NCBI GenBank assembly: GCA_017470945.1
Contig: JAFUXH010000081.1
Coordinates: forward strand, 1 to 33,640
Length of the DNA stretch: 33,640 nt
From: Clostridia bacterium
GTDB taxonomy: Bacteria > Bacillota > Clostridia > Christensenellales > Aristaeellaceae
Reading direction: 5' to 3'
Positions 1 to 21,684 of this stretch are shown in pieces (positions within the stretch are counted from its first letter, which is position 1; each line of letters begins with the position of its first letter). The position numbers and the translations under genes were made by a program. The notes under the pieces were generated by a model. That model searched no databases. It had not been told where the DNA came from and worked only from the letters and a program-made list of their open reading frames with translations.

Positions 1-115
1 AAATCCGCCTCTCTTTTTTCGCATATCTCTTGCAGCTTTTGTTTGCTGTACTCTTTTTTAAGGAATTTTGTATAAAAATGGTGATTTCCCTTATTTTATA
101 AAGATTTTCGAGGTG
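1..115. other. AT-rich stretch at the left edge, no gene seen
   Basis: Only 38 of the first 120 bases are G or C (about 32%), against about 60% in the coding DNA that follows. No open frame with a credible start lies here. An inverted repeat (TATAAAA at 71-77, TTTTATA at 94-100) could be a weak hairpin. The composition changes close to where the solute-binding protein gene at 116-259 loses its family sequence. This could be the edge of an inserted element, a deletion junction or an assembly join; the window does not extend far enough to tell. Confidence 0.6.
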
Positions 116-259
116 TTAACACCAATGTTTCTTGGAGAGCCCGAAGTCGATGCCTTCGACCACTTCGGGATACCCTTCCTTGGGTTCTTCGGCCAGCACG
201 AAGCTGCAGGAAGCCAGCAGCATCATGACAACCAGTGCCAGAGCAACGATTTTCTTCAT
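116..259 (-). pseudogene. N-terminal remnant of an extracellular sugar-binding protein
   Basis: The frame encodes 47 residues starting MKKIVALALVVMMLLASC, a signal peptide (a lipobox-like LLAS-C or cleavage after VLA), then EEPKEGYPEVVEGIDFG, then seven residues and a stop. From memory, PEVVEGIDFGG-type strings begin the mature part of full-length (about 450 residue) solute-binding proteins in clostridial sugar ABC operons. Here the match ends at about residue 40 and the frame closes with LSKKHWC. The start is firm: AAAAGGAGG lies 9 bases upstream of ATG at 259, a promoter lies at 347-375, and the gene follows two permease genes, the usual place for a binding protein. I read it as a gene that has lost about 90% of its length. 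A genuine small secreted peptide is possible but less likely. Confidence 0.7.
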
Positions 260-285
260 GAAAGAAAACCTCCTTTTTTATTTCC

Positions 286-310
286 ATACGGCACGCAGGC
301 GGCGCCGTAT
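286..310 (-). promoter_or_regulatory. Leader stem-loop before the binding-protein remnant
   Basis: ATACGGC and GCCGTAT form a perfect 7-bp stem with an 11-base loop between the promoter at 347-375 and the ribosome binding site. It has no U-tract, so it is not a terminator. A structured 5' end could stabilise the short transcript of a binding protein needed in excess over its permeases; that role is inference. Confidence 0.5.
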
Positions 311-346
311 AGTTACGATGTATGGGGTACTCCTTATTCCAGGGAT

Positions 347-375
347 ATTATATATCAAATTGTACCAAAACTCAA
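347..375 (-). promoter_or_regulatory. Sigma-A promoter internal to the transporter operon
   Basis: On the minus strand TTGAGT (370-375) is followed after 17 bases by TATAAT (347-352). It sits just after the MalG-type permease stop at 394 and would give a separate transcript for the binding-protein gene at 259. Confidence 0.7.
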
Positions 376-393
376 TACCCCGATCTGCGCTTT

Positions 394-1404
394 TTATTCT
401 TTGGAACCGGTCATGGCCAGGCTTTCCACGAAGGTGCGCTGGGTGAAGCAATACAGGATCACCAGCGGCAACGAGCAGATCAGCACGCCGATGGAAATCA
501 GCTGCTGCTGCCGGCCGGAGGGCACCACGATGGGCTGGCCGCTGTTGTTGGAGAAGTAGCGGCTCATGCGGGACACGATGGAGCTGAGCTGGATGGAGTA
601 AATGGAAAAGGAGCTGAGGAAGTTGCGGGAGTAGAACAGATCCGTCCACTGCCACACGAAGGAGAACAGGAAGCAGCTGGCGATGGTGGGCAAGGCGTCG
701 GGCAGCATGATGCGAACGAAGGTGTGCATGGTGCCGCAGCCATCCACATAGGCCGCTTCCTCCAGGCTGGTGGGGATGCCCTTGAAGTATTGCCGCATCA
801 TGTAAATATACAGCCCGTTTTTCAGGCCCATGCACGTAAGGCTCATGACCACGTAGGGGATCACCGAGGAACGCAGGTTGATGGCCTTCCCCGTCAGCGC
901 CTCAATGATGCCGAAGATATCGAAATTGGCAAAATTCATGTACAGGGCGGTCTGGATGGTTTGGGGCGGGATAACAATGAGCAGCACCACGCAGGCGAAC
1001 CAGAATTTTTTCAGCGGAAATTCATACCGGGCGAAGCCATAGGCCACCAGGGTGCAGGAAATGATCTGACAGACGGACACCAGCAGCGACGTCCACAGCG
1101 TGTTGAGCATGGAGGTGGGAAAATCGGTCAGTTCAGCCACGATGCGATAGTTATCCAGCGTCACGTGCCGGGGAAGCAGGATGATGCTGGAATCGTACAG
1201 ATCGCGCTCCTCCATGATGCTGGTGGAAAAACGGGTGAGCAGCGGCTGGATAATCATGAAACACAGGCCGAACAGCAGCAGCGCCCGGATGATGGAAATG
1301 GCGATCTGGGCGGAGCGCCGCTTCAGCAGATAGCCACCGCTGCGCCTGTTGCGATCCCAGAAGCTTTTGTTTTCACCGACAAAGACTGTGTTATTCTTGC
1401 TCAT
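394..1404 (-). CDS. Carbohydrate ABC transporter permease, MalG type (second pair)
   Basis: Inner subunit of an importer channel, 336 residues, with about six hydrophobic segments. The first is near residue 40 and the last ends near residue 325. The cytoplasmic ATPase-coupling loop reads EEAAYVDGCGTMHTFVRI followed by MLP, a clear match to the EAA loop of binding-protein-dependent sugar permeases. MalG-type subunits are usually about 280 residues; the extra length is the 30-residue polar N-terminus and a loop around SGQPIVVPSGRQQQ near residue 290. The ATG at 1404 overlaps the stop of the upstream permease (ATGA), implying translational coupling. It pairs with 1401-2381 to form one channel. 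The substrate is not readable from sequence, and no ATPase is encoded nearby. Confidence 0.93.
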   Translation of the reverse strand: MSKNNTVFVGENKSFWDRNRRSGGYLLKRRSAQIAISIIRALLLFGLCFMIIQPLLTRFSTSIMEERDLYDSSIILLPRHVTLDNYRIVAELTDFPTSMLNTLWTSLLVSVCQIISCTLVAYGFARYEFPLKKFWFACVVLLIVIPPQTIQTALYMNFANFDIFGIIEALTGKAINLRSSVIPYVVMSLTCMGLKNGLYIYMMRQYFKGIPTSLEEAAYVDGCGTMHTFVRIMLPDALPTIASCFLFSFVWQWTDLFYSRNFLSSFSIYSIQLSSIVSRMSRYFSNNSGQPIVVPSGRQQQLISIGVLICSLPLVILYCFTQRTFVESLAMTGSKE

Positions 1405-2381
1405 TGTGCTGATTTCACCGCCTTTGAAATGATGAAGGAGCTGATGCCGATGAACGCCAGCGCGACGCCAAAATAGATCCAGCTCATGGCGGAAGCCTCG
1501 CCGAACTTGAATTGCGAATACATGACCGTGTTGATGCGCTCCATCACCCGGTTATCGTTCTTCATGAAGAAGTCAACGATGGTGTAAATGCAATTCACCA
1601 ACAGCAGTGGACTGACCATGGGGAAGGTGATTTTCCAGAAGGCCTCCCAGGCGGAGCAGCCCTCCACGTCCGCCGCCTCGTAAAGGGAGGGCGAAATGGC
1701 CTGCAAGCCGCTGAGGAACACGATGATCTGAATGCCGCTGGCCATGATGATATCATAGATGGCATCGATCATCTGGAAAATGACGTCGAACACGCCGCTG
1801 CCCACGCCGGAAACGGAAAGCAGATCCTGCAGCGCGGCGGAGAGGTTCACGCCGGAGGCCTCCCCCACCGATTGGGCAATGCCGGCCATCATATCGTAGA
1901 ATTCATTCTGCTTTTCGATGCCGGGCAGTACGCCGGAGGACAGGATCACCGGCAGGAAAAAGATGGCGCGGCACAGGGTGCGCCCCTTAAATTCCTGATT
2001 GAGGATCACGGCGATTACGAAGCTCAGGATCAGGATGGCGATGGTGTTGATCCCCATCCGGCTGATTTCTTCCACCAGGTACTGGTTGTAATAGGGATCG
2101 ACGCCGAAAGCGTACTTGTAGTTATCGATGCCGAGCCACACCTTGTCGTAGCCGTGGCCGGGCACCAGGGTAACGTTGGAGAAGCTCATGATGAGCGACT
2201 CGATCAGCGGCTTGAGCATGAACAGCAGAAAGCCCAGCATGAAGGGAAGCACAAACAGCACGCCCGTCCGGGCCCGCCGGGCCGGCATGGTTTGATACAC
2301 CTTGTTTCCGGGGATGAACATTTGCACGCTTTCCTTGATCCCGTCGTACCAATGCTCCCGGATTTTGTGATTCTTGCTCAC
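1401..2381 (-). CDS. Sugar ABC transporter permease, MalF type (second pair)
   Basis: 326-residue integral membrane protein. A charged N-terminus (about 35 residues) is followed by a first membrane helix around TGVLFVLPFMLGFLLF and several further helices. The coupling loop is YEAADVEGCSAWEAFWKI then TFP, the EAA motif. It should heterodimerise with the MalG-type subunit downstream. The start is GTG at 2381: the sequence AAGGGGG stands 8 bases upstream, and an ATG ten bases upstream is in another frame. The GTG overlaps the DUF5696-type gene stop by 4 bases, so translation is probably coupled. A stretch at residues about 155-215 between helices (IEKQNEFYDMMAG to IYDIIMA) is longer than in classic MalF-like lipoprotein-dependent permeases. 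Confidence 0.93.
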   Translation of the reverse strand: MSKNHKIREHWYDGIKESVQMFIPGNKVYQTMPARRARTGVLFVLPFMLGFLLFMLKPLIESLIMSFSNVTLVPGHGYDKVWLGIDNYKYAFGVDPYYNQYLVEEISRMGINTIAILILSFVIAVILNQEFKGRTLCRAIFFLPVILSSGVLPGIEKQNEFYDMMAGIAQSVGEASGVNLSAALQDLLSVSGVGSGVFDVIFQMIDAIYDIIMASGIQIIVFLSGLQAISPSLYEAADVEGCSAWEAFWKITFPMVSPLLLVNCIYTIVDFFMKNDNRVMERINTVMYSQFKFGEASAMSWIYFGVALAFIGISSFIISKAVKSAQ

Positions 2382-4954
2382 CGCTCATTCCCCCTTTCCA
2401 CCAGATAATCCCTTGCGGGGATTTGAAGCGCGCCCGCGTCATACGCGGTGGTGTTGTAATTCACGTAGACCGTGGTGCCGTCCTCGTAGGTGGTGGCCGT
2501 CACGTTGTCGGCCAGGATCTCATGCCCGGTGATGGCCAGGCGGTTGAGGCCCTTCATCTCCTGCTGATACCGGGTGATCATGGCGGTCACGTGCTCCTTC
2601 CAGTTCTGATAGCCGGAGGAGGTGAAGCAGCTGTAATTCGTATCCTGCAGCACGGCGGTGTTGGCGTACATGAAGGTGAAATTCAGCCCCGCGCCGTATT
2701 CCGCGCATTCCAGCAGGGCGGTCTGGTAATCCCCCTCCAGGTTGATGGCGGAGCCGGTGTAATCCTGATGGCCGTGCAGGGCGATCTGGTAGAAAGGAAT
2801 GTGATCGTCGATGATGGCGTAGGGGATGCCGGACAGGTTCATATCGGTGATCAGATCGGCGTAGGGCACGGCGTATTCGTTGCCCTCCTTGATAATGACC
2901 TTCTCCCCTGCCGCCCGGGCTTCCTGCATGGTTTCAATGTTCAATTGCTTCACCTGCTCGCGGGTGACCAATTCGCGGGAATAATAATCGGCGCTGAGCA
3001 GGTTGCCGATATCGCGGAAGGCCACGCCGCTCACCTGCTTATCCTGCAGATAATGGATCAGGTTGGAAGCGTTCTGCTTGGCGTAGGAGGGCTTGACCAG
3101 ATAGAATTCATCCAGCCACTCGGCGGGCTGATAGGTTACGATATCGTAGGGATACAGCTTCACCTGCTCGCGGGTGGTATGGCGGGCCGTATCGGAGAAG
3201 GTGGAGAAGCCGTCGAAGATATTGCTGTGGTAGGCAAAGCAGGTGATCCCGTCAAAGAAGAGGGAAACGCCCTGCTTCTTGGCCTCTTCCGCCAGCTTTT
3301 TCAGGCCCTTTTCACCGCCCATGGCCCCCACTACGTGCACGCCCGTCAGCACCTTCTGCCGCACGCCGCCGTTGCTCCAGCCGGTCATGCGCACGTTCAG
3401 TGCGTTCACATGCTGATTGCTTAAGTCGGTGATGATTTCCAGCGCCTGGTCGAAGGTGGTGGTGGCGACGACGGAATCGATGGGCAGGCCGAATTTCACC
3501 TGCATCTTGTTGATGGCGCCGACCAGTTCCACGTTCACCGGCATGTCTTCGCTGACCTGCTTGGTTTGCATCTCCGGATAGTGCTTTTGCAGGTAATCGC
3601 CGTACGCCGTGGCCATGGCGACGTAATCCCCGCCGGCCACCGGCCGATACCGCTGCAGGATGGAGCCTTCCGGCAGGTCGTTTTCATACATGTAAACCAG
3701 CCGCGGGGTCTTGGCCGATACGTTGTACTGGTCGTAATGCAGCACGTTGTACATGGCGTACACGGTGTTGTAGCTGTTGTAGCGGCCGGAAATATCGGCA
3801 TTAACGCCGGCGTAGGAATTGCTGCCCTCCATAACGCAGATGAAGGAGCCGTCCGGCTGCATCATGCCAAAGACCGGGAAGGTGTTTTTGGTTTCACTGA
3901 CGGCTTCCTTGCGCTGGATGCCGTAATCCCAGCCGTACAGATTGGCGTAATAAGGATTCTGGGATAATTTGCCGTTGTTGTATCGAATCAGCGCGCCGCC
4001 GCCCTCCGGCAGCATGATCGCGCCTTCCTGCTGGGTGCCTGCTGCGCCGAACATGGGCAGCACGCTGACGTAGGTGATGGGATATTCCGCCTTGTAGCGA
4101 ATTTTCTTGTAGGGGATCTCCACCGTCAATTCATCGTCCTCCAGGCGATAAATGACGGTGACGTTGAACACAGGGCCGCTGTTGTCGGCTTTTTGAGCCA
4201 CCAGCATTTCGTCGATGGCGAAATCCTCCTCGGTGTAGCCGCCCTCCTTGAAATAGCCCTCGATCTTGCCTTTGTTGTCGGCGCTGGTTTCGGATTTCAG
4301 GATGTACAGCGCCTGCTCCGTGATGGAGGGATACATGGCGATCAATTCATCCTTGTTGCTCCGGCTGTCCAGCTTATCGGGCTCCACCAGGGAATAGTTG
4401 GACGACAGCTTCTTCTTGGTGGATTTGGACATGTTGTCGGTAAAGGCGTTGTACCGCTCCTTGGTGATGGCGGTGGGGATCATGAACACCTTTTCGATCT
4501 CGCCGACGGAGTATTCTACCTGGATAGCCTGATCCTCCAGCTGTTCCACGGTATAGGTCTGGTTCTGGATGGAATAGGCGTAATTGTTCAGTGTCACTTC
4601 GCCGCTGCTGGTGGTGTAGGTCACCAGCAATGTTGCCGACAGGGTATCCTTGTTGCTGGTCAGGGCGATAGGATCCGACGCCCGGTCCTGGGGGTTGGAG
4701 TACCAGGTTTTTCCGGTCCGTTTGTCGGTAAGCTGGAAATGGGTGTTGTTCTCATCCAGCTCGAAGGCGAGGCTGTCGTTTTCCATGGTCAGCTTTTTGC
4801 CTTCGCCCTCGTAGTAGGAAATAGAGGGCGGGTTATCCACCTGCTCATCCTTCTGGGAATACAGCGGAATGCCCACAAAGATCACCAGGGCGGCGATCAG
4901 CGCCAGGGCGATGATCCACGACAGCAGCCTGCGGATGATGGATTTCTTTCTCAT
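2378..4954 (-). CDS. Membrane-anchored DUF5696-type protein, possible glycoside hydrolase relative
   Basis: Large surface protein, about 858 residues. Using numbering from the ATG at 4963: one N-terminal membrane helix at about 15-35, beta-rich sequence at 45-300, an aromatic-rich sandwich-like part at 300-460, an alternating beta/alpha part at 475-800 that looks like a TIM barrel, and a small beta C-terminus at 808-861. That order resembles glycosidases with a super-sandwich before the barrel. Acidic residues after predicted barrel strands, D651 in FRDIGN and D719-D720 in AIIDDHIPF, are candidate catalytic groups. The family name is recalled, not searched. ATGs occur at 4963, 4960 and 4954; AAGGAGG is 1, 4 and 10 bases away, so I favour 4954. 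It lies between the Yip1-type gene (15 bases) and a permease (overlap), which suggests handling of the imported substrate outside the membrane. Confidence 0.75.
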   Translation of the reverse strand: MRKKSIIRRLLSWIIALALIAALVIFVGIPLYSQKDEQVDNPPSISYYEGEGKKLTMENDSLAFELDENNTHFQLTDKRTGKTWYSNPQDRASDPIALTSNKDTLSATLLVTYTTSSGEVTLNNYAYSIQNQTYTVEQLEDQAIQVEYSVGEIEKVFMIPTAITKERYNAFTDNMSKSTKKKLSSNYSLVEPDKLDSRSNKDELIAMYPSITEQALYILKSETSADNKGKIEGYFKEGGYTEEDFAIDEMLVAQKADNSGPVFNVTVIYRLEDDELTVEIPYKKIRYKAEYPITYVSVLPMFGAAGTQQEGAIMLPEGGGALIRYNNGKLSQNPYYANLYGWDYGIQRKEAVSETKNTFPVFGMMQPDGSFICVMEGSNSYAGVNADISGRYNSYNTVYAMYNVLHYDQYNVSAKTPRLVYMYENDLPEGSILQRYRPVAGGDYVAMATAYGDYLQKHYPEMQTKQVSEDMPVNVELVGAINKMQVKFGLPIDSVVATTTFDQALEIITDLSNQHVNALNVRMTGWSNGGVRQKVLTGVHVVGAMGGEKGLKKLAEEAKKQGVSLFFDGITCFAYHSNIFDGFSTFSDTARHTTREQVKLYPYDIVTYQPAEWLDEFYLVKPSYAKQNASNLIHYLQDKQVSGVAFRDIGNLLSADYYSRELVTREQVKQLNIETMQEARAAGEKVIIKEGNEYAVPYADLITDMNLSGIPYAIIDDHIPFYQIALHGHQDYTGSAINLEGDYQTALLECAEYGAGLNFTFMYANTAVLQDTNYSCFTSSGYQNWKEHVTAMITRYQQEMKGLNRLAITGHEILADNVTATTYEDGTTVYVNYNTTAYDAGALQIPARDYLVERGNER

Positions 4955-4969
4955 CTTCATCATCCCTCC

Positions 4970-5662
4970 TTAATTCAACCGGAAGAAAACTTCCCGGTAC
5001 ATGCTGACGAAATAGCCGGCCGCGTCGCTGAGCAGGCTGAAGAAAACCAGCATCAGGAAGATGATCACGCAAGCGCCCAGCACCGTGACCAGCAGGAAAA
5101 TGATGGTTTTTCCCGGGCCGTAATCATGCACCTCCATCAAGCCGACAAATACCAGGAACACGCACCAAATCACGCTGATGCTGAGCAGCACGGAATAGAA
5201 GCTGCCCTCCTCAAACGTCAGGGCGTTGCTCACCAGCACCATGGGCAATTGGATCAGCACATAGGGCACCAGCGCGTAGCACATGGCCATGTAGATATCC
5301 TTGAAGCGGCCCTTGCCGTCAAACAGGGTGGTCATGGCCCAGTTTGCCAGGCACAAAATCAGGAAGGGCAGCAACAGCGAGCCCATCTGCTCAAACACGT
5401 TGATATACTGGATGGGCACCAGGATGAATTGGAAACTGGTGCACAGGAGCTTGATGACCCGGGTGAGCAAAAACAGGATCAGGAACGTGTGGGCCGCCGC
5501 CAGGGTGCCCTGCTTTTCATGGATCAGATCCCAGAACCCGTCGAAGGGATGCGTGATCACGTGCAGGGAAAAGCGCAGGGAGGCGACGTACCGGCTCCAC
5601 CAGGCGCTGCGGCCGGAGGCTTTCAAAGCCGCTTGATTACTTGTGGACTTTGCTACGCTCAT
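4970..5662 (-). CDS. Yip1-family integral membrane protein
   Basis: 230 residues with about five membrane helices (around residues 50-75, 90-115, 125-155, 165-190 and 195-225), typical of the bacterial Yip1 domain. A short cytoplasmic N-terminus (MSVAKSTSNQAALKASGRSA) precedes SLRFSLHVITHPFDGFWDL, a usual Yip1 entry motif. The biochemical role of bacterial Yip1 proteins is not established. The start at 5662 has GGGAGG 9 bases upstream and lies inside the last codons of the NHL-repeat gene (26-base overlap). Its fixed position between the NHL-repeat protein and the DUF5696-type protein suggests the three form a membrane assembly alongside the permeases; this is inference. Confidence 0.8.
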   Translation of the reverse strand: MSVAKSTSNQAALKASGRSAWWSRYVASLRFSLHVITHPFDGFWDLIHEKQGTLAAAHTFLILFLLTRVIKLLCTSFQFILVPIQYINVFEQMGSLLLPFLILCLANWAMTTLFDGKGRFKDIYMAMCYALVPYVLIQLPMVLVSNALTFEEGSFYSVLLSISVIWCVFLVFVGLMEVHDYGPGKTIIFLLVTVLGACVIIFLMLVFFSLLSDAAGYFVSMYREVFFRLN

Positions 5663-7157
5663 GGACGATCACCTCCCACTTCATTTTCTTGATTCTGCCA
5701 AGGCCCAGGGGCACGATCAGCACCACCGCCAGGATCAGCACGATGATCAGGATGTTGTTTTCTACCCAGACCTTCCGGTACAGCTTGAACGCCCGGCCGT
5801 AATTTTCCCTGTCGTGGGCCAGCTTGAAGTAGTTCATGGCCTCTTCAAAATGATTCTGCCTCAGCACCGCGCGGCCAATCCCCCGGAAAGCCAGGGGGTA
5901 ATTGGCGTTCAGCTTGAGTACCTCCCGCCAAAGATCGGCGCTCTGGTCGTATTCGCCGCGGGTATAGGCTTCCGAAGCCTGATAGATGGTGTTGCCGTAT
6001 TCCGTGGGGGTAAAGACCGTGATGCTGTTTTCCAATTGGTCTAGCACGATCAAATTGTAGCCCATATGCTCCACGCTGACGGCCCGGGCGAAGGCGCCGT
6101 CAGTATTGCCCTTGGTGCCGAAGGCCCACAGCAGTACGCCCTGGCTGTCATAGCCGAACAGGCGGCCGCGGGTCCTGTCCACCGCCACGTAGATATCGTT
6201 ATCCAGCACCGTGATATCGGCGAATTTGCTGGGACCGTAGGTGCTGCCGCCCTCCTGCCAGAACAGGTCGCCAATGGGCGGGAAGCGGTCGTTCTTGATC
6301 AGGATATCGTTGCCCAGGTTGTTCAGCCGCCGGATGGGCTTGGCGCTGTCCGACTTCAGGTCGTATTCGCTGAACACCGTATTGGTCACGTAAATGAAGC
6401 CCTGGGGATCGATATAGCAGTTTTCATACTCCGTGGGCACGAAGCTGATGGTTTGCGCCCGCTGGGCCTTGGTCATGAAGAAGCGCCGCCAGATGTATTC
6501 CCCCATGCTGACGCTGACGGTGTTGGCGCCGATATAGCCGGTGAAGGTGCCGTCCGCCTCGTATTTGACCAGGCCCTTATTGACGTTGGTCACCAGGCAG
6601 TACACCCGGCCGGCTACGTCCACCACCAGCCGCTTGGGCAGGAAGGACAGGCTCTGGTCGAAGGTGGCGTCGGCAGGCTTGATGAATTCCTTGATGAATT
6701 GAAGATCCCGATCCATAACCACGATGCGCTCGTTGGATGTATCGGCCACGTAAATGGTGCCTTCCTCATCCACAAACACGTCGCTGGGCTGGTTGAAGGT
6801 ATTTTTATCCGTGCCCTGAATGGCGCTGATCACCCGGGCGGTGGTGTAGGTTTTTCCATCCCAATGGATCTGAATGATCCGGTTGTTGCCCGTATCGCAT
6901 ACGTACAGGTCGTTGCCCTGCACGAACAGGGATTGGGGCTGCCTGATCCGGGTGCCATTCAGGGTATCCAGGCCCAGGGTGATGCTGTCGATCACCGTTT
7001 CCACCCGGTAGGCGTCGGGGGATTCCTGCACGTCCTCCCAGTAATCGTAGGTGTATGTATACGCGGTGCTGTATCCGTCATTCACGGCCAGCGCCGCCGA
7101 CGGAAGCAGCAACGCGATCACAGCCAGGATCAGCAGCGCTCGTTTGAACCCTTTCAT
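5637..7157 (-). CDS. Exported NHL-repeat / TPR-like membrane protein
   Basis: 506 residues. A signal peptide (MKGFKRALLILAVIALLLP, cleavage probably after ALA) is followed by at least five beta-propeller blades with NHL signatures such as LYVCDTGNNRIIQI and IYVADTSNERIVVMD. Next comes a helical TPR-like stretch (AYTRGEYDQSADLWREVL, then RQNHFEEAMNYFKLA), and finally a membrane helix (IIVLILAVVLIVPLGLG) with a short basic cytoplasmic tail. The propeller and TPR would face outward, suited to binding protein or glycan partners. The frame extends upstream to 7193, but GGGAGG lies 8-9 bases before the ATG at 7157 and the signal peptide starts there. It overlaps the Yip1-type gene. The fold call is strong; the ligand is unknown. 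Confidence 0.82.
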   Translation of the reverse strand: MKGFKRALLILAVIALLLPSAALAVNDGYSTAYTYTYDYWEDVQESPDAYRVETVIDSITLGLDTLNGTRIRQPQSLFVQGNDLYVCDTGNNRIIQIHWDGKTYTTARVISAIQGTDKNTFNQPSDVFVDEEGTIYVADTSNERIVVMDRDLQFIKEFIKPADATFDQSLSFLPKRLVVDVAGRVYCLVTNVNKGLVKYEADGTFTGYIGANTVSVSMGEYIWRRFFMTKAQRAQTISFVPTEYENCYIDPQGFIYVTNTVFSEYDLKSDSAKPIRRLNNLGNDILIKNDRFPPIGDLFWQEGGSTYGPSKFADITVLDNDIYVAVDRTRGRLFGYDSQGVLLWAFGTKGNTDGAFARAVSVEHMGYNLIVLDQLENSITVFTPTEYGNTIYQASEAYTRGEYDQSADLWREVLKLNANYPLAFRGIGRAVLRQNHFEEAMNYFKLAHDRENYGRAFKLYRKVWVENNILIIVLILAVVLIVPLGLGRIKKMKWEVIVHERSKVHK

Positions 7158-7208
7158 TTCTCCGTTCCCTCCCATTGTTGCGTTTGGATCCAATGGCTCA
7201 TACCGCCG

Positions 7209-8435
7209 TCAGTCCTTGATACCGGAAGACGCCATGGTCTCCAGAATCTGGCCTTGGTTGAAGACGAAGACGATAATGGGAACCGCCACGATGATCACGT
7301 TGGCCGCGGCCATCTGGCCGGTGCGGGCGATGCCGCCGGCCTGGATCTGCTGCAGGGCGTAGACCAGCGTCTTTTTCGCCTCGGAATAAATGACGGTGCT
7401 GGCGCTGTTGTTCCACAGGCCCTGGATGCTGAAAATCATCATGGTCAGCCAGGCGGGCTTCACGTTGGGCATCACGATGCTCCAGAAAATGCGGAACTGG
7501 CCCGCGCCATCGATGGTGGCGGCCTCGATCAGGGGCGTGGGCAGCCCTTCCATGAACTGCTTCATCAGGAACAGCCCGATGGGGGCCGAGAAGGCCGGCA
7601 GGATCAGCGCCCAATAGGTATCGATCATATTCAGGCGGCTGAAGATCAGGTACTGCGGGATGCCGGTCACATAGCCGGAGAACATCAGGAACGTGGTCAC
7701 GATGGCGAAGAAGATCTTGCCGCCGGGGAATTCATACTTTGCCAGCACGAAGGCCGCCATGCTGGCGATCACCAGATGCCCGAAGGTGCCCACCACGGTG
7801 ATGAACACGGTGTTCAGCAGGTACCGGCTGAAGGGCACCCAGCTCTGCCCCATGGTGACGAACAGATCAGAGAAGTTATCCGTCGTGGGCTGCCGGGGCC
7901 ATACGGGCGGCGGGAAGCGGAACAATTCATCCAGGGGCTTCAAGCTGGAGCCAATCAGATAGACCAGCGGGAAAACCATCATGATGCCCACCAGGATCAG
8001 CATCAGGTAGATCCCCAGATCGCCCGTGATGGAGCGGTTGGGATGGCGGCGGTGGATCAAATGATGCTTGGGAGCCTGGATCTTTTCGCCCCGCAGCTCC
8101 GCCAGACGGTGCAATTCATCGCCCCGGGTTTTGGGCGTCACGGGCTGATCCAGCCAGTGCTTATCCATGTAGCTGTACAGCTTCAGGCCCTGATTCAGTT
8201 CGAAAACGTACCGGCTGTCATCCTTGAGGATCACGGTGATCTGGCTGGCGGTGCCGCCCAGGCGGATATTGTCCATCCGGTGCAGGCGCACGTAACGCCA
8301 TTCCACCAGCGGCTGCTCCTGCTTTTTCACGTAAAAGGCGGCGCTGGTTTCCCCGGCCACCAGGGTGCCGTGGTATTTCTTGCCGGAAATCAGCTTCAAT
8401 GTGCCGGTAGACTTGACAGTGTTCAACTCGCTCAT
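7209..8435 (-). CDS. Carbohydrate ABC transporter permease, MalG type, with N-terminal extension (first pair)
   Basis: 408 residues, about 120 longer than usual for the family. The C-terminal 270 residues are a normal MalG-type permease: first helix LGIYLMLILVGIMMVFPLV near residue 140, and coupling loop IEAATIDGAGQFRIFWSI then VMP. The first 125 residues are soluble. Residues 10-75 are beta-rich (TGTLKLISGKKYHGTLV, ITVILKDDSRYVFEL), and a basic linker (KHHLIHRRHPNRS) leads into the membrane. In this topology the extension is cytoplasmic, so it may touch the shared ATPase or a regulator. The start at 8435 follows the MalF-type gene stop by one base. The permease call is secure; the role of the extension is not. 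Confidence 0.92.
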   Translation of the reverse strand: MSELNTVKSTGTLKLISGKKYHGTLVAGETSAAFYVKKQEQPLVEWRYVRLHRMDNIRLGGTASQITVILKDDSRYVFELNQGLKLYSYMDKHWLDQPVTPKTRGDELHRLAELRGEKIQAPKHHLIHRRHPNRSITGDLGIYLMLILVGIMMVFPLVYLIGSSLKPLDELFRFPPPVWPRQPTTDNFSDLFVTMGQSWVPFSRYLLNTVFITVVGTFGHLVIASMAAFVLAKYEFPGGKIFFAIVTTFLMFSGYVTGIPQYLIFSRLNMIDTYWALILPAFSAPIGLFLMKQFMEGLPTPLIEAATIDGAGQFRIFWSIVMPNVKPAWLTMMIFSIQGLWNNSASTVIYSEAKKTLVYALQQIQAGGIARTGQMAAANVIIVAVPIIVFVFNQGQILETMASSGIKD

Positions 8436-8436
8436 G

Positions 8437-9381
8437 TCAGGTACCCACCCTTTCCAGCAGCGCGCTTACTGCTTTCTTGCTCAGGATCATCACCAGGAAC
8501 AGCAGCGTTGCGATGGCACTGGCATAGCCCATTTCAAATCGGCTGAAGCCGTAGTCGAACAGGTGGGTGACCACGGTGCGGGCGGCGTAATCCGTGGAGG
8601 GATAACCGCACAGAAGGCGGGGCACGTCGCTCACGTTGAAAGCAGAGGTGATGCTCATCACCGCGCCAAAGAGCAGCATGGGCTTCATGCTGGGCAGGGT
8701 GATGTGGTACAATTCCTGCCAGCGGTTGCGCACGCCATCCACATACCCGGCCTCGTACATGCTTCTGTCGATGCCCTGGAAGCCGGCCACGAAGGACAGG
8801 AAGCCGGTGCCCATGCTCATCCACAGGCTGACGATGATCACGATGGTCATCATATATTTGGGGTCCAGCAGCCACAGCCGCGGCGCCTCGATGATGCCGA
8901 ATTCCATCAAAATGGAGTTGAACCAGCCGTAAGCGTCGCCACGGAAAATGATGGTGAACACGGTGAACGCCGCGCCGGCGATGGACGGGGCGTAGAACAC
9001 CACCACGCCCACGGCCCGCAGCCATTTGGGCAGTTCGTTGATGAACCAGGCAAACAGGAAAGAAAGGATATAGCCGACAGGCCCCACGATGACGGCGATG
9101 ACGAGGGTGTTTTTCACGGACGTCAGGAACACTTCGTCCTGCAGGATCAGGTTAATGTAGTTCTGCAGCCCCACGAACCGGGCGGGCTCCAGAATATTGT
9201 AGTAGGTAAAGCCGTAAAAGATCGACATGCAGATGGGCAGAACGGACAGGGTGAAAAACAGGATGGCGTAAGGCGCCAGGAACAGGTAACATACCTTGTT
9301 TTTCTTGGCCATCGACCAGCCGTGCTGCATCTTTTCCCGCTTCATCGTCAGGTATCTGGATGCGAACGATTGCGAATTCAT
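8437..9381 (-). CDS. Sugar ABC transporter permease, MalF type (first pair)
   Basis: 314 residues, of ordinary length for the family, with six hydrophobic segments beginning with VCYLFLAPYAILFFTLSVLP near residue 40. The coupling loop is YEAGYVDGVRNRWQELYHI then TLP, a recognisable EAA loop with one A-to-G change. It is the partner of the MalG-type subunit at 7209-8435. The open frame reaches a TTG at 9408, but AGGAGG stands about 10 bases before the ATG at 9381, which gives MNSQSFASRYLTMKREK; I use that start. The upstream gene ends 24 bases before it. Substrate recognition probably comes from the large binding protein at 9405-12302. Confidence 0.93.
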   Translation of the reverse strand: MNSQSFASRYLTMKREKMQHGWSMAKKNKVCYLFLAPYAILFFTLSVLPICMSIFYGFTYYNILEPARFVGLQNYINLILQDEVFLTSVKNTLVIAVIVGPVGYILSFLFAWFINELPKWLRAVGVVVFYAPSIAGAAFTVFTIIFRGDAYGWFNSILMEFGIIEAPRLWLLDPKYMMTIVIIVSLWMSMGTGFLSFVAGFQGIDRSMYEAGYVDGVRNRWQELYHITLPSMKPMLLFGAVMSITSAFNVSDVPRLLCGYPSTDYAARTVVTHLFDYGFSRFEMGYASAIATLLFLVMILSKKAVSALLERVGT

Positions 9382-9404
9382 GCTTTCTGATCCTCCTTTC
9401 TTTC

Positions 9405-12302
9405 TCAATCCACCGGCAGGTTGAATTCCTGCCGTTTGATCTTGATTTCTTCATTGATGGTGCGCGCGTAGTTCAGCAGCGTCTCCCGGGGATCCTCCTT
9501 GGTGTTGATCACGCGGCGAATGGCATTGGTGATGTGGCGGGTGGTGGAATAGCCGCCGGCGATTTCGGGGAAGCCGCGGGTGTGGCTCATTTGCTCCTCC
9601 AGCACCTGCAGTTGATCCTTGCTCCAGGCCAATTGCCTCAGCGCGTCCCGGTTGGCGGTCTGGTACCGGGCGCTGGCGCCCAGCACGCTTTCCATTTCCC
9701 GGCCGAAACGCACCTGCGCATCGGCGCTGACCCACCATTTCATGAATTCCCAGGCGTTGTTTTTCGTGTTCTGATCGTCGGTGGCGACCATCATGCAGCA
9801 CAGCCCGTCGGTATTGGCGGTGCGGTCGATGGTGCCGTCCGCCTGGATCGTTCCCGGGAACAGGGTGAAATCCCACAGCCCGCGGATCTCGGGGGCGGAT
9901 ACCATCAGGGTGTTGTAGGTGGCGTAGGAAGCCAGGCCCAGGGGCATTTCACCGCTGCGGAAGCGGCTGACGAAGTCGAACACCGTGGGCAGGCCGTAGT
10001 CGTTATACAGGCTGGTGTACAGCTTGAAGGCCGTAACGCCGCTCTCGGAATCGATCAGGGTGTGCTTGGCGTCCTGATCGTAAATGAAGCCGCCATTTTG
10101 ATAGATCAAGGAATTCAGCACCGAGATATCCGCCGCGCCGATATCCGGGAAGGGCACGGCCACGGTCAGGCTGTTGCCCTGGATGGTGGGCAGGATGGCG
10201 ATCAGATCATCCCAGGTCTGAGGCACCGCCAGCCCCAGCTCCTCCATCACGTCGGAGCGGTAGAACAGCAGGCTGAAATTCTGGGTTTCGGGCAGGCCAT
10301 ACACGCCCACCTTCTTGCCGTTGTCATAAGTCAGTGGGGTCAGGATGCTGTCATAGAAGGGCTCCACCACCTGCGCGTAATCGGGGAACTGGGTCAGATC
10401 CTCCACGGCGTTGCGCATGGCGTAGTTCACCGCGAACCAGCCGCTGACGCTGATGACGATATCGGGGCCGTTGCCCGCCACCACGGCGGTCAGGATGGCG
10501 TCGGCCGCCACCAATTTCACGTTCACCTTGATGCCGGTCTTGGCGGTGAAGGTATCATCCACCATGGTTTTCAGCACGGTGCTCTGGTCGCGGCCCGTGG
10601 TGATCCAAATTTCCAATACGTCGTCGTTATCTTCGTATTTATCGCCCAGGGAATTGTAATCCACGAAGTAGGAGCTGACGCAGCTTTTGATCTCGTGGGC
10701 AAAGCTCTGGAAGAAGTTTTCGCCTACCTTGGGCACCTTGGCGTTTTCGCCGGTGATCATGATCAGATCCACGTCCAGCTTACTTTCGGACATATTCTGC
10801 ATGGCGGTGCCCAGGGAGGTGATATTGTCTTTGAAGTTGGTGAAAGATTCGGTGATTTTATCGTTGTTTTCCACGAATTGCTCCAGCTGCACGGCCAGGG
10901 TCTGGGCGACGGCCACCCGGTCGCTCTTCTGGCCCGTGATGGCCACGGTGTCATCCACGATCTGGTAAAGCCGCTTGCTTTCCAGGCTCATGGCCCGGAT
11001 GACGTCGGGGTATACGCTGGCCAGGTTATAATCGCGGAAGCGGTCGGGGTTGGCGCCAGTGAGCACCAGGATCTTGCGGTAGATCTGGTTCAGGCGGAAA
11101 ATGCTGTCCTCCACCCGCTTGAGCACTGGGCCCATTTCACCCAGCGTCACCTCCATGCGGATGGTGTGGTCGCCCTTGGTCAGGTAGAAGCGGTAGGGAT
11201 TGCCGTCCTGATCCCCCAGGGTGCGCATATCCCAGGAGGTATTGTAGCCGAAGGTCACAGTGCTCAAAGCGTCGAAGGGCACCTGGCCGTCGATATACAC
11301 CGTGCGGCTGCTCAGCGCGCCGCGCTGATACATCTGCCGGGCCTTGATGGAGATATTGTAATACCCATCCTCCGGCACGGAGAAATCCCACTCGATCCAT
11401 TCGCCGGGATGGGTCCAGGGGTCGCCGCCGATGTAATTGAGGATGGTATTGGTAACGGAGCTGGGCTCGGTTTGGCCGGAGGAGCGGTCATACCGGGCGT
11501 ACAGGCTGGGGCTGGAGCGCAGCTCCGCGCTTTCCCCCTGCACCTTCAGGGAGTAATTCTTGCCCGCGTCGGTCATGGTCACCTGGGGCTGGTCGCTCAA
11601 ATACTGCGCGTAGGTAGCGTACGCCGAAATAGGCGTCAGCGTGATGCCGCCGATGATGGCGGGCTCGTTGACGGCCTTGAGGGACAGGGTGTTCTCCCCC
11701 GCCTGGAAATAAAAGGCGTAGGGCTCCGTCTGGTAACCCATGCTGTCGCGGCAATAGGCGCGCTGCCATTCAAAGCGCTCCACCTGGGTGGGGCGGATAT
11801 CGTTGCCCTGGTTGTCCTTGCGCACTTCGCCCACGTCTGTCCACAGGCGGCTGAAACACAGGGTGGAAGCGCCGGAGAATGGCACCTCGCCATTGATATA
11901 CAGTTCCCTTTCCACGTCCACCCCACGGGATTCCACAGTCAAATAATCCAGCATGATATAGTACATGCCGGCCTTTTCTACATTCACCTTCCAGGTCACG
12001 AAGGAGCTGTCGGGCGTATAGACCACCTGCGTTCCCTGATCGCCCGGACGCGCCTCGGCGTCCCCCTCGAAGGAGGCCACGTCCACCGCGATGCTTTCGT
12101 CCCCGCTCTCCGCGTCCGCGTGGAGGGACAAATAGTAATCGTAGGTGTTGCCCCTGCTGATGCCCGTCACATCGGCGGACAGATCGGCGCCCTCGTATTT
12201 GCTCCGGAAATCCTGAGCGCCGCCGCCGAATACGATCAACAGCACCACCACCGCAGCCAGGCAGACCAGGCCCACCACGATCCCGCGATTCTTTTTCACC
12301 AT
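9405..12302 (-). CDS. Membrane-tethered solute-binding protein with two carbohydrate-binding-like modules
   Basis: 965 residues and first gene of the operon. Layout: an uncleaved membrane helix at 8-27 (no lipobox), a jelly-roll-like module at about 95-225, a second at about 258-390 (EWIEWDFSVPEDGYYNISI is typical of CBM6/35-like folds), a helical stalk at about 395-555, and an extracellular solute-binding domain from about 562 to 950. The last contains VLEIWITTGRDQSTVLK, AVVAGNGPDIV and PQTWDDLIAILPTI, all typical of family 1 sugar-binding proteins. Ordinary binding proteins are about 420-550 residue lipoproteins, so this is a large fusion. The open frame reaches 12377, but GGAGAGGCGG precedes the ATG at 12302 and the membrane anchor starts there. 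The binding-domain call is strong; the N-terminal modules are called from pattern only. Confidence 0.85.
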   Translation of the reverse strand: MVKKNRGIVVGLVCLAAVVVLLIVFGGGAQDFRSKYEGADLSADVTGISRGNTYDYYLSLHADAESGDESIAVDVASFEGDAEARPGDQGTQVVYTPDSSFVTWKVNVEKAGMYYIMLDYLTVESRGVDVERELYINGEVPFSGASTLCFSRLWTDVGEVRKDNQGNDIRPTQVERFEWQRAYCRDSMGYQTEPYAFYFQAGENTLSLKAVNEPAIIGGITLTPISAYATYAQYLSDQPQVTMTDAGKNYSLKVQGESAELRSSPSLYARYDRSSGQTEPSSVTNTILNYIGGDPWTHPGEWIEWDFSVPEDGYYNISIKARQMYQRGALSSRTVYIDGQVPFDALSTVTFGYNTSWDMRTLGDQDGNPYRFYLTKGDHTIRMEVTLGEMGPVLKRVEDSIFRLNQIYRKILVLTGANPDRFRDYNLASVYPDVIRAMSLESKRLYQIVDDTVAITGQKSDRVAVAQTLAVQLEQFVENNDKITESFTNFKDNITSLGTAMQNMSESKLDVDLIMITGENAKVPKVGENFFQSFAHEIKSCVSSYFVDYNSLGDKYEDNDDVLEIWITTGRDQSTVLKTMVDDTFTAKTGIKVNVKLVAADAILTAVVAGNGPDIVISVSGWFAVNYAMRNAVEDLTQFPDYAQVVEPFYDSILTPLTYDNGKKVGVYGLPETQNFSLLFYRSDVMEELGLAVPQTWDDLIAILPTIQGNSLTVAVPFPDIGAADISVLNSLIYQNGGFIYDQDAKHTLIDSESGVTAFKLYTSLYNDYGLPTVFDFVSRFRSGEMPLGLASYATYNTLMVSAPEIRGLWDFTLFPGTIQADGTIDRTANTDGLCCMMVATDDQNTKNNAWEFMKWWVSADAQVRFGREMESVLGASARYQTANRDALRQLAWSKDQLQVLEEQMSHTRGFPEIAGGYSTTRHITNAIRRVINTKEDPRETLLNYARTINEEIKIKRQEFNLPVD

Positions 12303-12402
12303 AATTCCGCCTCTCCGACAGCTGACTACATCGTTTTCGCTGCCTTGTGTAATGATTGTTCGTTCACAGATGCACAAACAAATATAGGCAAAACATGCTA
12401 AA

Positions 12403-12431
12403 ATTATACCGTCTTTGTGCCATTATGTCAA
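12403..12431 (-). promoter_or_regulatory. Perfect-consensus sigma-A promoter of the transporter operon
   Basis: On the minus strand TTGACA (12426-12431) and TATAAT (12403-12408) are separated by exactly 17 bases. A-rich tracts upstream resemble an UP element. Transcription should begin near 12396, giving a leader of about 94 bases before the ATG at 12302. I see no hairpin with a U-tract in that leader. A promoter this strong is normally held down by a repressor or limited after initiation. Confidence 0.85.
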
Positions 12432-12517
12432 TCTTCGTCTTACTTTTTTTGTGCTTTTGTTATATATTCTTCATAATATCTGCTCATTTTTTATCTGTTG
12501 CGCGCACATGCTGCCAC

Positions 12518-12551
12518 AATTCGCAAATTTGTCCGCTAAAATTGCAAATTC
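12518..12551. repeat. Imperfect inverted repeat, possible operator
   Basis: AATTCGCAAATTTG (12518-12531) and AAAATTGCAAATTC (12538-12551) are near reverse complements if one base is skipped, with a 6-base spacer. The element lies about 90 bases upstream of the operon -35 and about 100 bases upstream of the sigma gene promoter, a position for a shared regulator. AT-rich DNA makes chance similarity possible. Confidence 0.35.
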
Positions 12552-12652
12552 ATTCCATCGACCCGTCCCATTCCGGCGTCGATCAGTCGAGGTCAGGGCG
12601 GCCGGGCAGGAAAACGGCGGGCAGGGAACGTATAAAAAATGTGCGCTGACCA

Positions 12653-12678
12653 TGCAACGTTTTGCATTTTCCCGCGTC
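12653..12678 (+). promoter_or_regulatory. ECF-type promoter, probably autoregulatory
   Basis: TGCAACGTTTT at 12653-12663 carries the AAC core (12656-12658), followed after 16 bases by CGTC (12675-12678) and TAAA. AAC-N16-CGTC is the architecture recognised by SigW/SigM/SigV-like ECF factors, and it lies 27 bases before the sigma gene start. This suggests the sigma factor transcribes its own gene. Confidence 0.7.
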
Positions 12679-12704
12679 TAAAGGGTGAAAGGAAGTGAGC
12701 AGGG

Positions 12705-13196
12705 ATGGATTTTGAAGCGGTGTATACCCGCTATTTCCGCAAGGTTTATTCCTTTGCTTATTCCCTTTCCCGCAATGCCCACCAGGCGGAGGAAATCACC
12801 CAGGAGACCTTCTTCCGGGCCATGAAGAACCCGAATCAGTTCGAGGGCCGTTCCTCCATGGATACCTATTTGTGCTCCATCGCCCACAATCTGTTCGTTT
12901 CCGCCCTTCGAAAGCAGCAAAAAAACGCGCCGGACACAGCGCTGGAATTCCTGCCGTCGGATGCCGACGTGGAGGCTGGGTTCGAGCAAAAGGACACCGC
13001 GCGGCAATTGCACAAATTGCTGCATCGATTGGATGATCCGTACAAGGAGGTATTTACCCTGCGGGTATTCGGCGAATTATCCTTTGCCGAGATCGGCGCC
13101 CTCTTTGGCAAAGGCGACGCCTGGGCCCGGAGCGTCTATTTCCGGGCCAAGCAGAAACTGCAAGGCATGCTGAAGGAGGAAACAAACGATGGCTGA
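12705..13196 (+). CDS. ECF-type RNA polymerase sigma factor
   Basis: 163 residues, normal for the group. Region 2 spans about 1-70 (DFEAVYTRYFRKVYSFAYS, AEEITQETFFRAMKN, with DTYLCSIAHNLFVSALRKQ in the -10 binding part). A short linker follows, then region 4 at about 100-155 (LHRLDDPYKEVFTLRVFG, LSFAEIGALFGKGDAWARS) as the helix-turn-helix that reads the -35. The sigma factor would be held inactive by the zinc-finger membrane protein whose gene starts 8 bases before its end. The start follows AAAGGA, 12 bases away. It is divergent from the glycan transporter operon. That operon has a sigma-A promoter, so direct control of it by this factor is unsupported. Confidence 0.93.
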   Translation: MDFEAVYTRYFRKVYSFAYSLSRNAHQAEEITQETFFRAMKNPNQFEGRSSMDTYLCSIAHNLFVSALRKQQKNAPDTALEFLPSDADVEAGFEQKDTARQLHKLLHRLDDPYKEVFTLRVFGELSFAEIGALFGKGDAWARSVYFRAKQKLQGMLKEETNDG

Positions 13197-14205
13197 TCAG
13201 GAACAAATAATTTCCTGCAACATCATACAGGATCTGATGCCCCTGGTGATCGATAACGCGTGCAGCGAAGAAACCCGGCAGGCGGTGGATGACCACGTTC
13301 GATCCTGCCCATCCTGCGGGCAGGTGTTTTCCGCCATGAAGGCGCGTATCCCCGCGCTGCCGGTGGATGAAAACGCGGAAAAAAACATCCGTCAGGCCAT
13401 GAAAAAAACGAAACGAAAAACCCTGTGGCTGAAAGTTCTGGCGGCCTGTCTGGGGGTCATCGTGCTGATCAGCGGTATCTATGCAGCGGCGAACCCCGAA
13501 GTGCTGTTTTATGCCCAGACCAGCGCCCCCGCTTCCTGGTTCATCGGCGCTCATTTGGCGCGTACTCAGGAAGGCGCGCTGCTGGTGCAATTCACCCCCG
13601 ATGCCCAGATGAAAGATTTTTACGGCTTCCGGTATTTCCATCATCAGGACCGCAGCGTGTCCATTGCCAACGCCCGCATCCAGAATACGGCGCCTGTCGG
13701 CACCGCCAGCCTTGAATTCTCCTATTCCTGGCTGGCCCGGCTTTTGAACCTGAAAAAACCCGCCGTCGATCGAACCCATAGCGATATCATCCCGCTGCCA
13801 AACGGTGATTGGGCCGTTCCCCTGTGCAGCTTCGTCGATATCCGGTATGTGGACGGCCAATTGCTGGGGGCCAATTGGCGGCCCCTGACCTTCGAGGAAA
13901 TCAAAGCTCAGGTGGAGCAAGATAAAAAAATCAGCGGCAACGCCCTGATCTTCGATTACGAAAAAGAAGTTACTTTTGTCATTCGCAGCGGCAGCCAGGT
14001 GACGGAGGAAACGGCCCAGAACCCCACCTATGAAACCTGCAAGTGGATCATCACCGGCGGCGGGCAGACCAAGCAAATCTATCAGCCCGGCGAGGATATC
14101 CCCCTGTGCGATGAAGAAACCGAGCAATTGTTCCAACAATGGCGAATGAAGCACGCCTTTGATTTCCCCGCCATCGGCACGATCACCCCAGACGAAAACC
14201 TGTAA
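13189..14205 (+). CDS. Zinc-finger anti-sigma factor, membrane-spanning
   Basis: 338 residues. The cytoplasmic N-terminus carries a ZAS/zf-HC2 motif: C10, H36, C40 and C43, spaced C-x25-H-x3-C-x2-C (local sequence DDHVRSCPSCGQ). One membrane helix follows at about 79-100 (WLKVLAACLGVIVLISGIY), then about 235 residues outside the membrane. That outer part does not match a family I recognise and is the likely stress sensor. Motifs such as WLARLLNLKKP and GGGQTKQIYQPGEDIPL give no clear fold. The gene overlaps the sigma gene by 8 bases, the usual coupled arrangement, and a terminator follows. The anti-sigma role is well supported; the signal sensed is unknown. Confidence 0.88.
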   Translation: MADQEQIISCNIIQDLMPLVIDNACSEETRQAVDDHVRSCPSCGQVFSAMKARIPALPVDENAEKNIRQAMKKTKRKTLWLKVLAACLGVIVLISGIYAAANPEVLFYAQTSAPASWFIGAHLARTQEGALLVQFTPDAQMKDFYGFRYFHHQDRSVSIANARIQNTAPVGTASLEFSYSWLARLLNLKKPAVDRTHSDIIPLPNGDWAVPLCSFVDIRYVDGQLLGANWRPLTFEEIKAQVEQDKKISGNALIFDYEKEVTFVIRSGSQVTEETAQNPTYETCKWIITGGGQTKQIYQPGEDIPLCDEETEQLFQQWRMKHAFDFPAIGTITPDENL

Positions 14206-14212
14206 AAACAAT

Positions 14213-14239
14213 GGACGGAGCAATGCTTTTGCTCCGTCC
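14213..14239 (+). terminator. Hairpin terminator after the anti-sigma gene
   Basis: GGACGGAGCAA (14213-14223) pairs perfectly with TTGCTCCGTCC (14229-14239) across a 5-base loop. The T-rich tail (GTTCATTTATT) is imperfect. It separates the convergent anti-sigma and rnhA genes and may serve both. Confidence 0.75.
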
Positions 14240-14245
14240 GTTCAT

Positions 14246-14758: not shown

Positions 14759-14794
14759 TCCTCTTCCTCCCCATTCTGCATGCACTGCCCGAAT

Positions 14795-14823
14795 ACTATA
14801 CCATATCTTGTGGGGAAATGCAA
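14795..14823 (-). promoter_or_regulatory. Sigma-A promoter of rnhA
   Basis: On the minus strand TTGCAT (14818-14823) and TATAGT (14795-14800) are 17 bases apart, 37 bases before the rnhA start. The -35 covers an ATG at 14818 on the other strand, an argument against that ATG being the spoIVFA start. Confidence 0.65.
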
Positions 14824-14846
14824 TCATCCCTGCGCAATCTTTTTTC

Positions 14847-14875
14847 ACATATCCCGGCCTTCGCCCGCATAGGAT
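14847..14875 (+). promoter_or_regulatory. Candidate sporulation sigma-E promoter of spoIVF
   Basis: CATAGGAT (14868-14875) fits the sigma-E/sigma-K -10 pattern CATA-N3-T. ACATAT (14847-14852) lies 15 bases upstream, resembling the ATAT core of sigma-E -35 elements. Transcription would begin near 14882, just before AGGAGG at 14888. In Bacillus subtilis the spoIVF operon is sigma-E dependent. The motifs are short and degenerate. Confidence 0.45.
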
Positions 14876-14901
14876 GGATCAGCGAGCAGGAGGCGGAGCG
14901 C

Positions 14902-16459: not shown

Positions 16460-16471
16460 TTGCGAAAGCGC

Positions 16472-17329: not shown

Positions 17330-17370
17330 GTTTCTTCCTATTCCCGCCCCACCCCTGGGCGAATGAACGC

Positions 17371-21630: not shown

Positions 21631-21643
21631 CGGCCCAAAACGC

Positions 21644-21681: not shown

Positions 21682-21684
21682 CGC

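Follow-up and report, generated by a model that had tools for sequence, protein, structure and literature searches.

Gene Content and Layout

The window analyzed here (the whole stretch of 33,640 nucleotides from a Clostridia bacterium) is one entire contig (C51) of a fragmented assembly (G000: 165 contigs, 95% complete, 8% contaminated). Its minus strand carries, from position 12302 to 259, nine genes that may form a cell-surface glycan importer: a first solute-binding protein (SBP1), permeases P1B and P1A, an NHL/TPR protein, a Yip1-domain protein, a DUF5696 protein, permeases P2A and P2B, and a second solute-binding protein (SBP2). A first-pass annotation of this DNA had described two permease pairs around three middle membrane proteins, encoded in a single direction with overlaps or short gaps. 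Pfam assignments (BPD_transp_1 for the permeases) and coordinates bear out both statements. The same annotation counted ten genes; we found nine, and any additional frame listed from 259 to 12302 overlaps one of them. The features are as follows.

12403..12431, minus strand: promoter-like site TTGACA-17-TATAAT, 12/12 match, located 101 bases upstream of the SBP1 start (12302)
9405..12302, minus strand: SBP1, 965 amino acids (aa); N-terminal membrane anchor, two beta-sandwich regions, helical bundle and sugar-binding domain of the maltose-binding protein (MBP) type, as predicted
8437..9408, minus strand: P1B, MalF/UgpA-type permease; Pfam BPD_transp_1; EAA loop EAGYVDGVRNRWQELYHITLP
7209..8435, minus strand: P1A, MalG/UgpE-type permease; Pfam BPD_transp_1 from residue 224; EAA loop
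5637..7193, minus strand: NHL beta-propeller and TPR protein; Pfam NHL 1.8e-12
4970..5662, minus strand: Yip1-domain membrane protein; Pfam Yip1 2.6e-15; five hydrophobic segments
2378..4963, minus strand: DUF5696 protein; Pfam DUF5696 4.7e-186; N-terminal anchor; predicted GH129-type fold
1401..2381, minus strand: P2A, MalF/UgpA-type permease; Pfam BPD_transp_1 at 26.8 bits (cut-off 26.4); EAA loop
394..1404, minus strand: P2B, MalG-type permease; Pfam BPD_transp_1 1.5e-11; EAA loop
347..375, minus strand: promoter-like site before SBP2, 10/12 match
142..259, minus strand: 5' part of SBP2, interrupted; 39-bit match to SBP2 of a relative (L047)
1..141, no strand: end of an ISL3-family insertion element and of the contig; the 141 bases also occur on contigs C39 and C77

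The upstream start of P1B is a TTG codon at 9408, with internal starts possible, and the likely start of the NHL/TPR gene is 7157, where its profile match begins. With this start, P1A and the NHL/TPR gene are 51 bases apart. The NHL/TPR and Yip1 genes overlap by 26 bases, Yip1 is followed after 6 bases by DUF5696, and P2B ends 134 bases before the SBP2 fragment. None of the eight intact genes matched an NCBIfam model above its cut-off, and an Rfam scan of the window gave nothing above gathering scores. Divergent from the cluster, the plus strand encodes an extracytoplasmic function (ECF)-type sigma factor and a zf-HC2 anti-sigma-like protein (12705–14205).

Conservation of the Gene Set

Throughout, distinct loci or sequences are those with less than 98% identity. 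We compared 18 loci from the same family (14.6–20 kb each), drawn from the strongest matches and in several cases located on the same contigs as members of the 80-locus set described below. SBP1, P1B, P1A, NHL, DUF5696, P2A and P2B are present in all 18. Yip1 is a separate gene in 17 and fused to NHL in L043, and SBP2 is present in 17.

From a wider profile scan of contigs, which gave 579 loci, we took the best 80, hence close relatives. They come from gut and rumen Clostridia and Lachnospiraceae, including Lachnotalea glycerini. Among these best 80, and with presence counted within the locus and not as strict adjacency, all 56 loci with sufficient DNA have SBP1, P1B, P1A, NHL and Yip1. Of the 62 with enough DNA for the remaining genes, all have P2A and P2B, and 59 have SBP2. 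All nine genes occur in 44 of the 47 loci that are open on both sides, including one (L070) with SBP2 on the other strand; the three exceptions (L078, L085 and L096) are without SBP2. The neighborhood search proposed in the first-pass annotation as a check on its reading therefore finds the middle genes traveling with the permeases. Twenty further loci, of which six belong to the same family as the window, also keep the core with some rearrangement.

The same annotation had suggested looking for co-occurrence across Bacillota. In an even draw of 249 genomes of the phylum, DUF5696 (at the profile cut-off) was found in 20 and NHL (at 1e-30) in 21, with all 20 in common; five more genomes with weak DUF5696 matches below the cut-off were left out of the 20. 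In G342, the one genome with NHL and without DUF5696, the match is a short piece of NHL that lies where a contig ends and is followed by no partner gene (L197). SBP1 profile matches occur in 28 of the 249 genomes: 21 are near full length, one (G202) runs into the end of its contig, and six cover the C-terminal part only (G106, G153, G179, G192, G226 and G256). Of the 22 genomes in the first two groups, 20 are the DUF5696 genomes. Richer genomes were scored for up to four DUF5696, six NHL and three SBP1 candidates, so that copy numbers are lower bounds. In the list of matches from which the 18 loci were drawn, one genome (G055) has as many as five DUF5696 matches better than 1e-100. We also examined the DNA at 17 NHL places without a listed DUF5696 partner and found DUF5696 in the same cluster at 15, including L209, where a piece of it lies at the contig end. 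The remaining two are L208, which is cut by a contig end, and L197. The association of the nine genes exceeds chance. At one locus (L103), the first set is followed by an additional run of SBP1-P1B-P1A-NHL, which is more divergent and extends to an NHL-like frame at 21244–22557.

A Proposed Division into Two Modules

NHL and Yip1 form one fused protein in 12 of the 20 further loci. Eight loci (L167, L168, L175, L176, L200, L205, L207 and L212) carry NHL-Yip1, DUF5696 and SBP2 without SBP1 and permease pair 1 (P1B and P1A) within the stretch examined. Permease pair 2 (P2A and P2B) is in view in seven of these half sets; the eighth, L175, lies on a contig that stops short of P2A. Farther along, L176 carries an additional permease pair with low scores. 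The half sets belong to four genomes from two families, and each genome has, at another place, a copy of the set that includes SBP1 and pair 1. Because of these half sets, the middle genes seem to associate first with pair 2. We refer to SBP1 and pair 1 as module A, and to the middle genes, pair 2 and SBP2 as module B.

Pairwise identities were compared across 48 distinct close loci (54 close loci of 87 used if near-duplicates are included). Those of NHL, Yip1, DUF5696, P2A and P2B correlate at 0.76–0.87, and those of SBP1, P1B and P1A correlate with those of P2A and P2B at 0.41–0.64; the correlations ignore shared ancestry, and P1A is affected by its variable N-terminus. Mean identity is highest for P1B (0.81), intermediate for SBP1 (0.69) and lowest for DUF5696 and SBP2 (0.55 each). 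The low value for SBP2, together with the widest spread of all (0.12), fits the idea that SBP2 is an exchangeable part. Downstream of P2B, L166 contains tandem SBP2-like genes (10525–18000), as if binding proteins had multiplied. A protein with three CBM65 stretches is encoded between P2B and SBP2 in L036 (15898–17661) and L043 (12695–14428); these are divergent copies, one of them from the window's genus (G030).

Promoter-like Sites

The cluster had been placed behind one perfect promoter in the first-pass annotation. The 12/12 site before SBP1 is there, but the second site (10/12) before SBP2 means that the gene set need not depend on one promoter. The promoter and EAA patterns are general consensus forms, and the promoter shuffles keep base content only. 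Since the whole scan found 10 sites against 8.3 in shuffles, one site alone proves little. In 82 distinct relatives, the 300 bases preceding SBP1 gave a mean best score of 10.0, compared to 8.04 in shuffles, with a site scoring 11 or 12 in 41 of them (47 of 90 stretches with near-duplicates included). The gap between P2B and SBP2 in 66 distinct relatives gave a mean best score of 8.29, compared to 7.30 in shuffles, and a site scoring at least 10 in 27 (29 of 73 gaps with near-duplicates). Given this site in part of the relatives, transcripts may break before SBP2, and the objection of broken transcripts that the first-pass annotation raised to its own reading may partly apply.

A promoter-like site of its own for SBP2 in part of the loci, a separate binding protein for each permease pair, and half sets without SBP1 and pair 1 in four genomes from two families would all be expected if two ordinary sugar importers had become adjacent by chance, with three unrelated genes as passengers. 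We consider this explanation unlikely: it does not sit well with the nine genes in 44 of 47 open loci (best 80 of 579), with the same core in distant Bacillota, or with the fusions of NHL to Yip1. Furthermore, P2A and P2B stand beside the middle genes not only in the 62 of 62 loci from the same best 80 but also, L197 apart, in 10 of 10 loci that were found through NHL and have room for them.

Interrupted SBP2 Gene

The first-pass annotation had listed a gene remnant at the end of the cluster. This 47-codon frame (259–116) begins like SBP2 of the relatives, where homologous, intact SBP2 genes occupy the same place, and diverges at position 141. It is the 5' part of the second solute-binding protein gene, cut by an ISL3-family element. 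The 141 bases that open the contig recur without change at the start of C39 and at the end of C77, and C77 encodes an ISL3-type transposase (DDE_Tnp_ISL3). The 3' part of SBP2 is found at C162:18143–19456, and its beginning adjoins 105 bases that share 97% identity with the C77 region on the far side of the transposase. Both junctions contain TCGACTTCG, as a target duplication would give. From the shared element ends and this duplication we infer that the window and C162 join within SBP2, and that, at least in some of the population sampled, the insertion element interrupts the gene. Since SBP2 is broken in this assembly, module B may be impaired in that part of the population. We rejected a degraded gene, since the fragment is homologous to the SBP2 start and departs from it exactly at the repeat. 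C39 and the examined end of C77 were rejected as continuations of SBP2, as no SBP2 match was found there.

Substrate Context

Past SBP2, C162 carries genes for glycoside hydrolases of families GH10 (tail to tail with SBP2), GH5 and GH130; no second GH10 gene was found in this genome. For comparison, we picked 57 downstream open reading frames (ORFs) of relatives by hand, based on position and size; two were duplicates (one a GH5), and the GH10 of L047 was known beforehand. The 55 distinct ORFs, all on the same strand as the cluster, include 11 GH10, six GH5, six GH43 and two GH130 enzymes and four FGGY sugar kinases; others are unrelated to sugars. Thirty downstream ORFs from more distant loci include three GH26, three GH43 and two GH38 enzymes and three arabinofuranosidase C-terminal domains, along with methyltransferases and others. 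As a control, 57 of 75 upstream ORFs drawn from 105 were classified. Among the 54 distinct ones we found two GH10, two GH5 and six AraC regulators, with one GH67 and one GH39 among the 57. This control is weak, because both strands were taken and more spurious ORFs are therefore included. The nearest PDB sequence to SBP2 of L046 is an arabino-oligosaccharide binding protein (6e-5). Together, the enzyme neighbors and this match indicate hemicelluloses that differ between loci. The solute-binding protein fold and the hemicellulase neighbors also support the glycan role assigned to the cluster in the first-pass annotation.

Proteins of the Cluster

SBP1 is a family 1 solute-binding protein (Pfam SBP_bac_1/8) with one strong N-terminal hydrophobic segment. 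Structure comparison gives its C-terminal domain an MBP-type fold that resembles the sugar-binding proteins Lin1841 and CbpB; SBP1 is set apart from these by some 550 additional residues, which make up the anchor, the two sandwich regions and the helical bundle. A carbohydrate-binding module (CBM) had been proposed on this protein. This label is weak (Pfam CBM_35 at 16.3 bits, cut-off 28), but the structure model does show two beta-sandwich regions. The N-terminal part matched nothing in PDB sequences better than E 0.63, and SBP1 gave partial matches only against a viral structure library (best TM 0.11); the beta-sandwiches were not folded or searched by themselves, and the structure comparison behind the MBP-type fold barely tests them.

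All four permeases have intact EAA loops. The first hydrophobic segment of P1A is at residue 140. At its N-terminus this protein carries some 130 additional residues that match no Pfam family, and the Lachnospiraceae copies examined (about 280–325 aa) are too short to contain them. No ATPase is encoded in the operon; three UgpC-type ATPase genes above the curated cut-off are available elsewhere in the genome, in agreement with the earlier suggestion of a shared ATPase.

The NHL/TPR protein has a signal-like N-terminus and a C-terminal membrane helix (hydrophobic segments 13–31 and 481–499), and its TPR matches are under the Pfam cut-off. The gene fusions support contact between NHL and Yip1; all further contacts are presumed. 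A scaffolding role for the two proteins is unproven, the fusion being the one argument for contact. NHL relatives of known structure include PknD (1rwi), the outer domain of a receptor kinase. This relative, the AraC regulators in six of the 54 distinct upstream ORFs and the divergent ECF sigma/anti-sigma pair would suit a sensing device, in which the NHL/TPR propeller detects bound glycan, Yip1 signals to pair 2 or to a regulator, and uptake is secondary. Against it, none of the eight intact proteins has a Pfam match to a kinase, anti-sigma or DNA-binding domain, and the loops for ATPase coupling are kept in all four permeases, so that we give this idea little credence.

The DUF5696 protein has one strong N-terminal hydrophobic segment, and its predicted structure shares the overall fold of GH129 NagBb. 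This enzyme and the GH129-like DagB of Zobellia are the nearest described proteins (PMC5698469). Compared to these, DUF5696 is distinguished by its membrane anchor, by an identity of 15–19% and by a presumed acid/base residue that does not appear to be conserved (Glu in 42 of 124 distinct sequences). We placed the catalytic residues in these 124 sequences by strand position, which gives a weak register and is no residue-level structural alignment. On this basis, D651 is present in 101, E693 in 42 and both in 40, including the window (109, 46 and 44 of 132 sequences with near-duplicates). Since the presumed catalytic pair does not appear to be conserved, we did not keep DUF5696 as a certain glycosidase, and glycan trimming by this protein, as the first-pass annotation had it, is unproven. 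Longer DUF5696 frames (1,302 to 2,887 aa) occur at L202:3–8663 and in L107, L108, L110 and L111. We dropped these long forms as a functional hint because the scanned parts (the matched stretches of L107 and L111 and the L202 frame) give no Pfam family other than DUF5696. Proteins of about 600 aa (G038:C41, G029:C13 and others) weakly match the middle of the DUF5696 profile.

If DUF5696 acted on alpha-linked sugars like its GH129 relatives, the cluster could serve the turnover of the cell's own envelope glycans, with the permeases recycling the products. The GH129-type fold would fit this function, as would the conservation of SBP1, which is high for a binding protein (0.69 compared to 0.55 for SBP2 in the 48 distinct loci). 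Against it stand the patchy distribution (20 of 249 genomes), the up to five strong DUF5696 copies in G055 and the adjacent plant-polysaccharide enzymes, which make envelope turnover improbable.

Interpretation

We favor the reading, which appears probable though far from secure, that the cluster encodes a two-module cell-surface importer for oligosaccharides from plant hemicelluloses (xylan, mannan and related beta-glycans) that draws on ATPases from elsewhere. The two modules would be mostly co-inherited. Module A would consist of anchored SBP1, with two lectin-like sandwiches on a helical stalk, and of pair 1; module B would comprise the NHL/TPR, Yip1 and DUF5696 proteins, pair 2 and SBP2. 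Polymer would be cut by secreted hemicellulases, and SBP1 and DUF5696, with its GH129-type barrel, would retain the fragments at the membrane, where those copies of DUF5696 that have both acidic residues may cleave them. NHL/TPR and Yip1 would act as one unit, probably linking DUF5696 and the binding proteins to pair 2. Both permease pairs would be driven by UgpC/MsmK-type ATPases encoded elsewhere. The proposal of the first-pass annotation that the two pairs import different products is unproven.

Several points weigh against this reading. SBP1 and P1B correlate in identity with NHL, Yip1 and DUF5696 at 0.69–0.78, which is close to their correlation with each other (0.74). The correlations alone therefore do not split the modules, and the tie of the middle genes to pair 2 follows from the half sets more than from the correlations. 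G342 has a short NHL relative without a partner, and G203 and G253 have SBP1, about 700 bases from a contig end, without DUF5696 or NHL matches. The neighboring enzymes vary by locus (GH10, GH5, GH43, GH26, GH38 and pectate lyase) and some neighboring genes are unrelated to sugars, so that no single substrate follows. The link between C51 and C162 consists of a shared repeat and duplicated bases, with no contig spanning both, and the catalytic assignment in DUF5696 depends on a weak sequence register. Finally, what is observed are the gene set, its conservation, the predicted folds, the EAA loops, the ATPase genes and the hemicellulase neighbors; the substrates, the physical complex, the division of labor and the pairing with ATPases are deduced.

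A different emphasis, possible but clearly less probable than the two-module importer, is that the NHL/TPR, Yip1 and DUF5696 proteins and pair 2 form a stable membrane complex, a functional Gram-positive counterpart of SusCD. Its glycan-handling core would be fixed, the GH129-fold protein would serve in most copies for binding or threading and not as a hydrolase, and exchangeable binding proteins (SBP2) would set substrate specificity.

Fiber breakdown is less understood in Bacillota of the rumen and gut than in Bacteroidota. The nine-gene core spans several Bacillota families. If its products work as one machine, the core would be a recognizable marker of glycan uptake in these bacteria that could be used much like the SusCD pair, and would provide a testable function for bacterial Yip1 and DUF5696 proteins.

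Comparison with Known Systems

A known class of transporters is that of the CUT1-type ABC importers, which take up oligosaccharides by means of a shared MsmK/UgpC ATPase. The present cluster resembles them in its family 1 solute-binding protein (SBP1), its MalF/MalG-type permeases with EAA loops, and an operon without an ATPase gene in a genome that encodes UgpC-type ATPases elsewhere. Unlike these importers, it combines two permease pairs and two binding proteins with the NHL/TPR, Yip1 and DUF5696 proteins, and SBP1 is an anchored protein of 965 aa.

The first-pass annotation knew of no experimental account of such a combined system. Our literature search, with subscription papers and preprints outside its scope, likewise found no description of NHL/TPR, Yip1 and DUF5696 proteins in this role. 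A term search of the main text of Sheridan et al. 2016 (PMC5320581) and of a Blautia paper (PMC10318527), both on Gram-positive polysaccharide utilization loci (gpPULs), did not find NHL, Yip1 or DUF5696 named. As far as titles tell, papers pairing Yip1 with xylan concern fungi and plants, and the one listed on the Yip1 domain together with clostridia and ABC transporters concerns bacteriocins.

A gpPUL (Sheridan et al. 2016, PMC5320581) combines a transporter, a polysaccharide-degrading enzyme and a regulator. The present cluster is similar in that a transport system lies near hemicellulases. The enzymes would be the GH10, GH5 and GH130 proteins of C162, reached through the inferred link between C51 and C162. 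As candidate regulators, the window has the divergent ECF sigma/anti-sigma pair, and relatives have AraC proteins in six of 54 distinct upstream ORFs. Compared to gpPULs as described there, the system here is distinguished by a constant core with variable enzymes.

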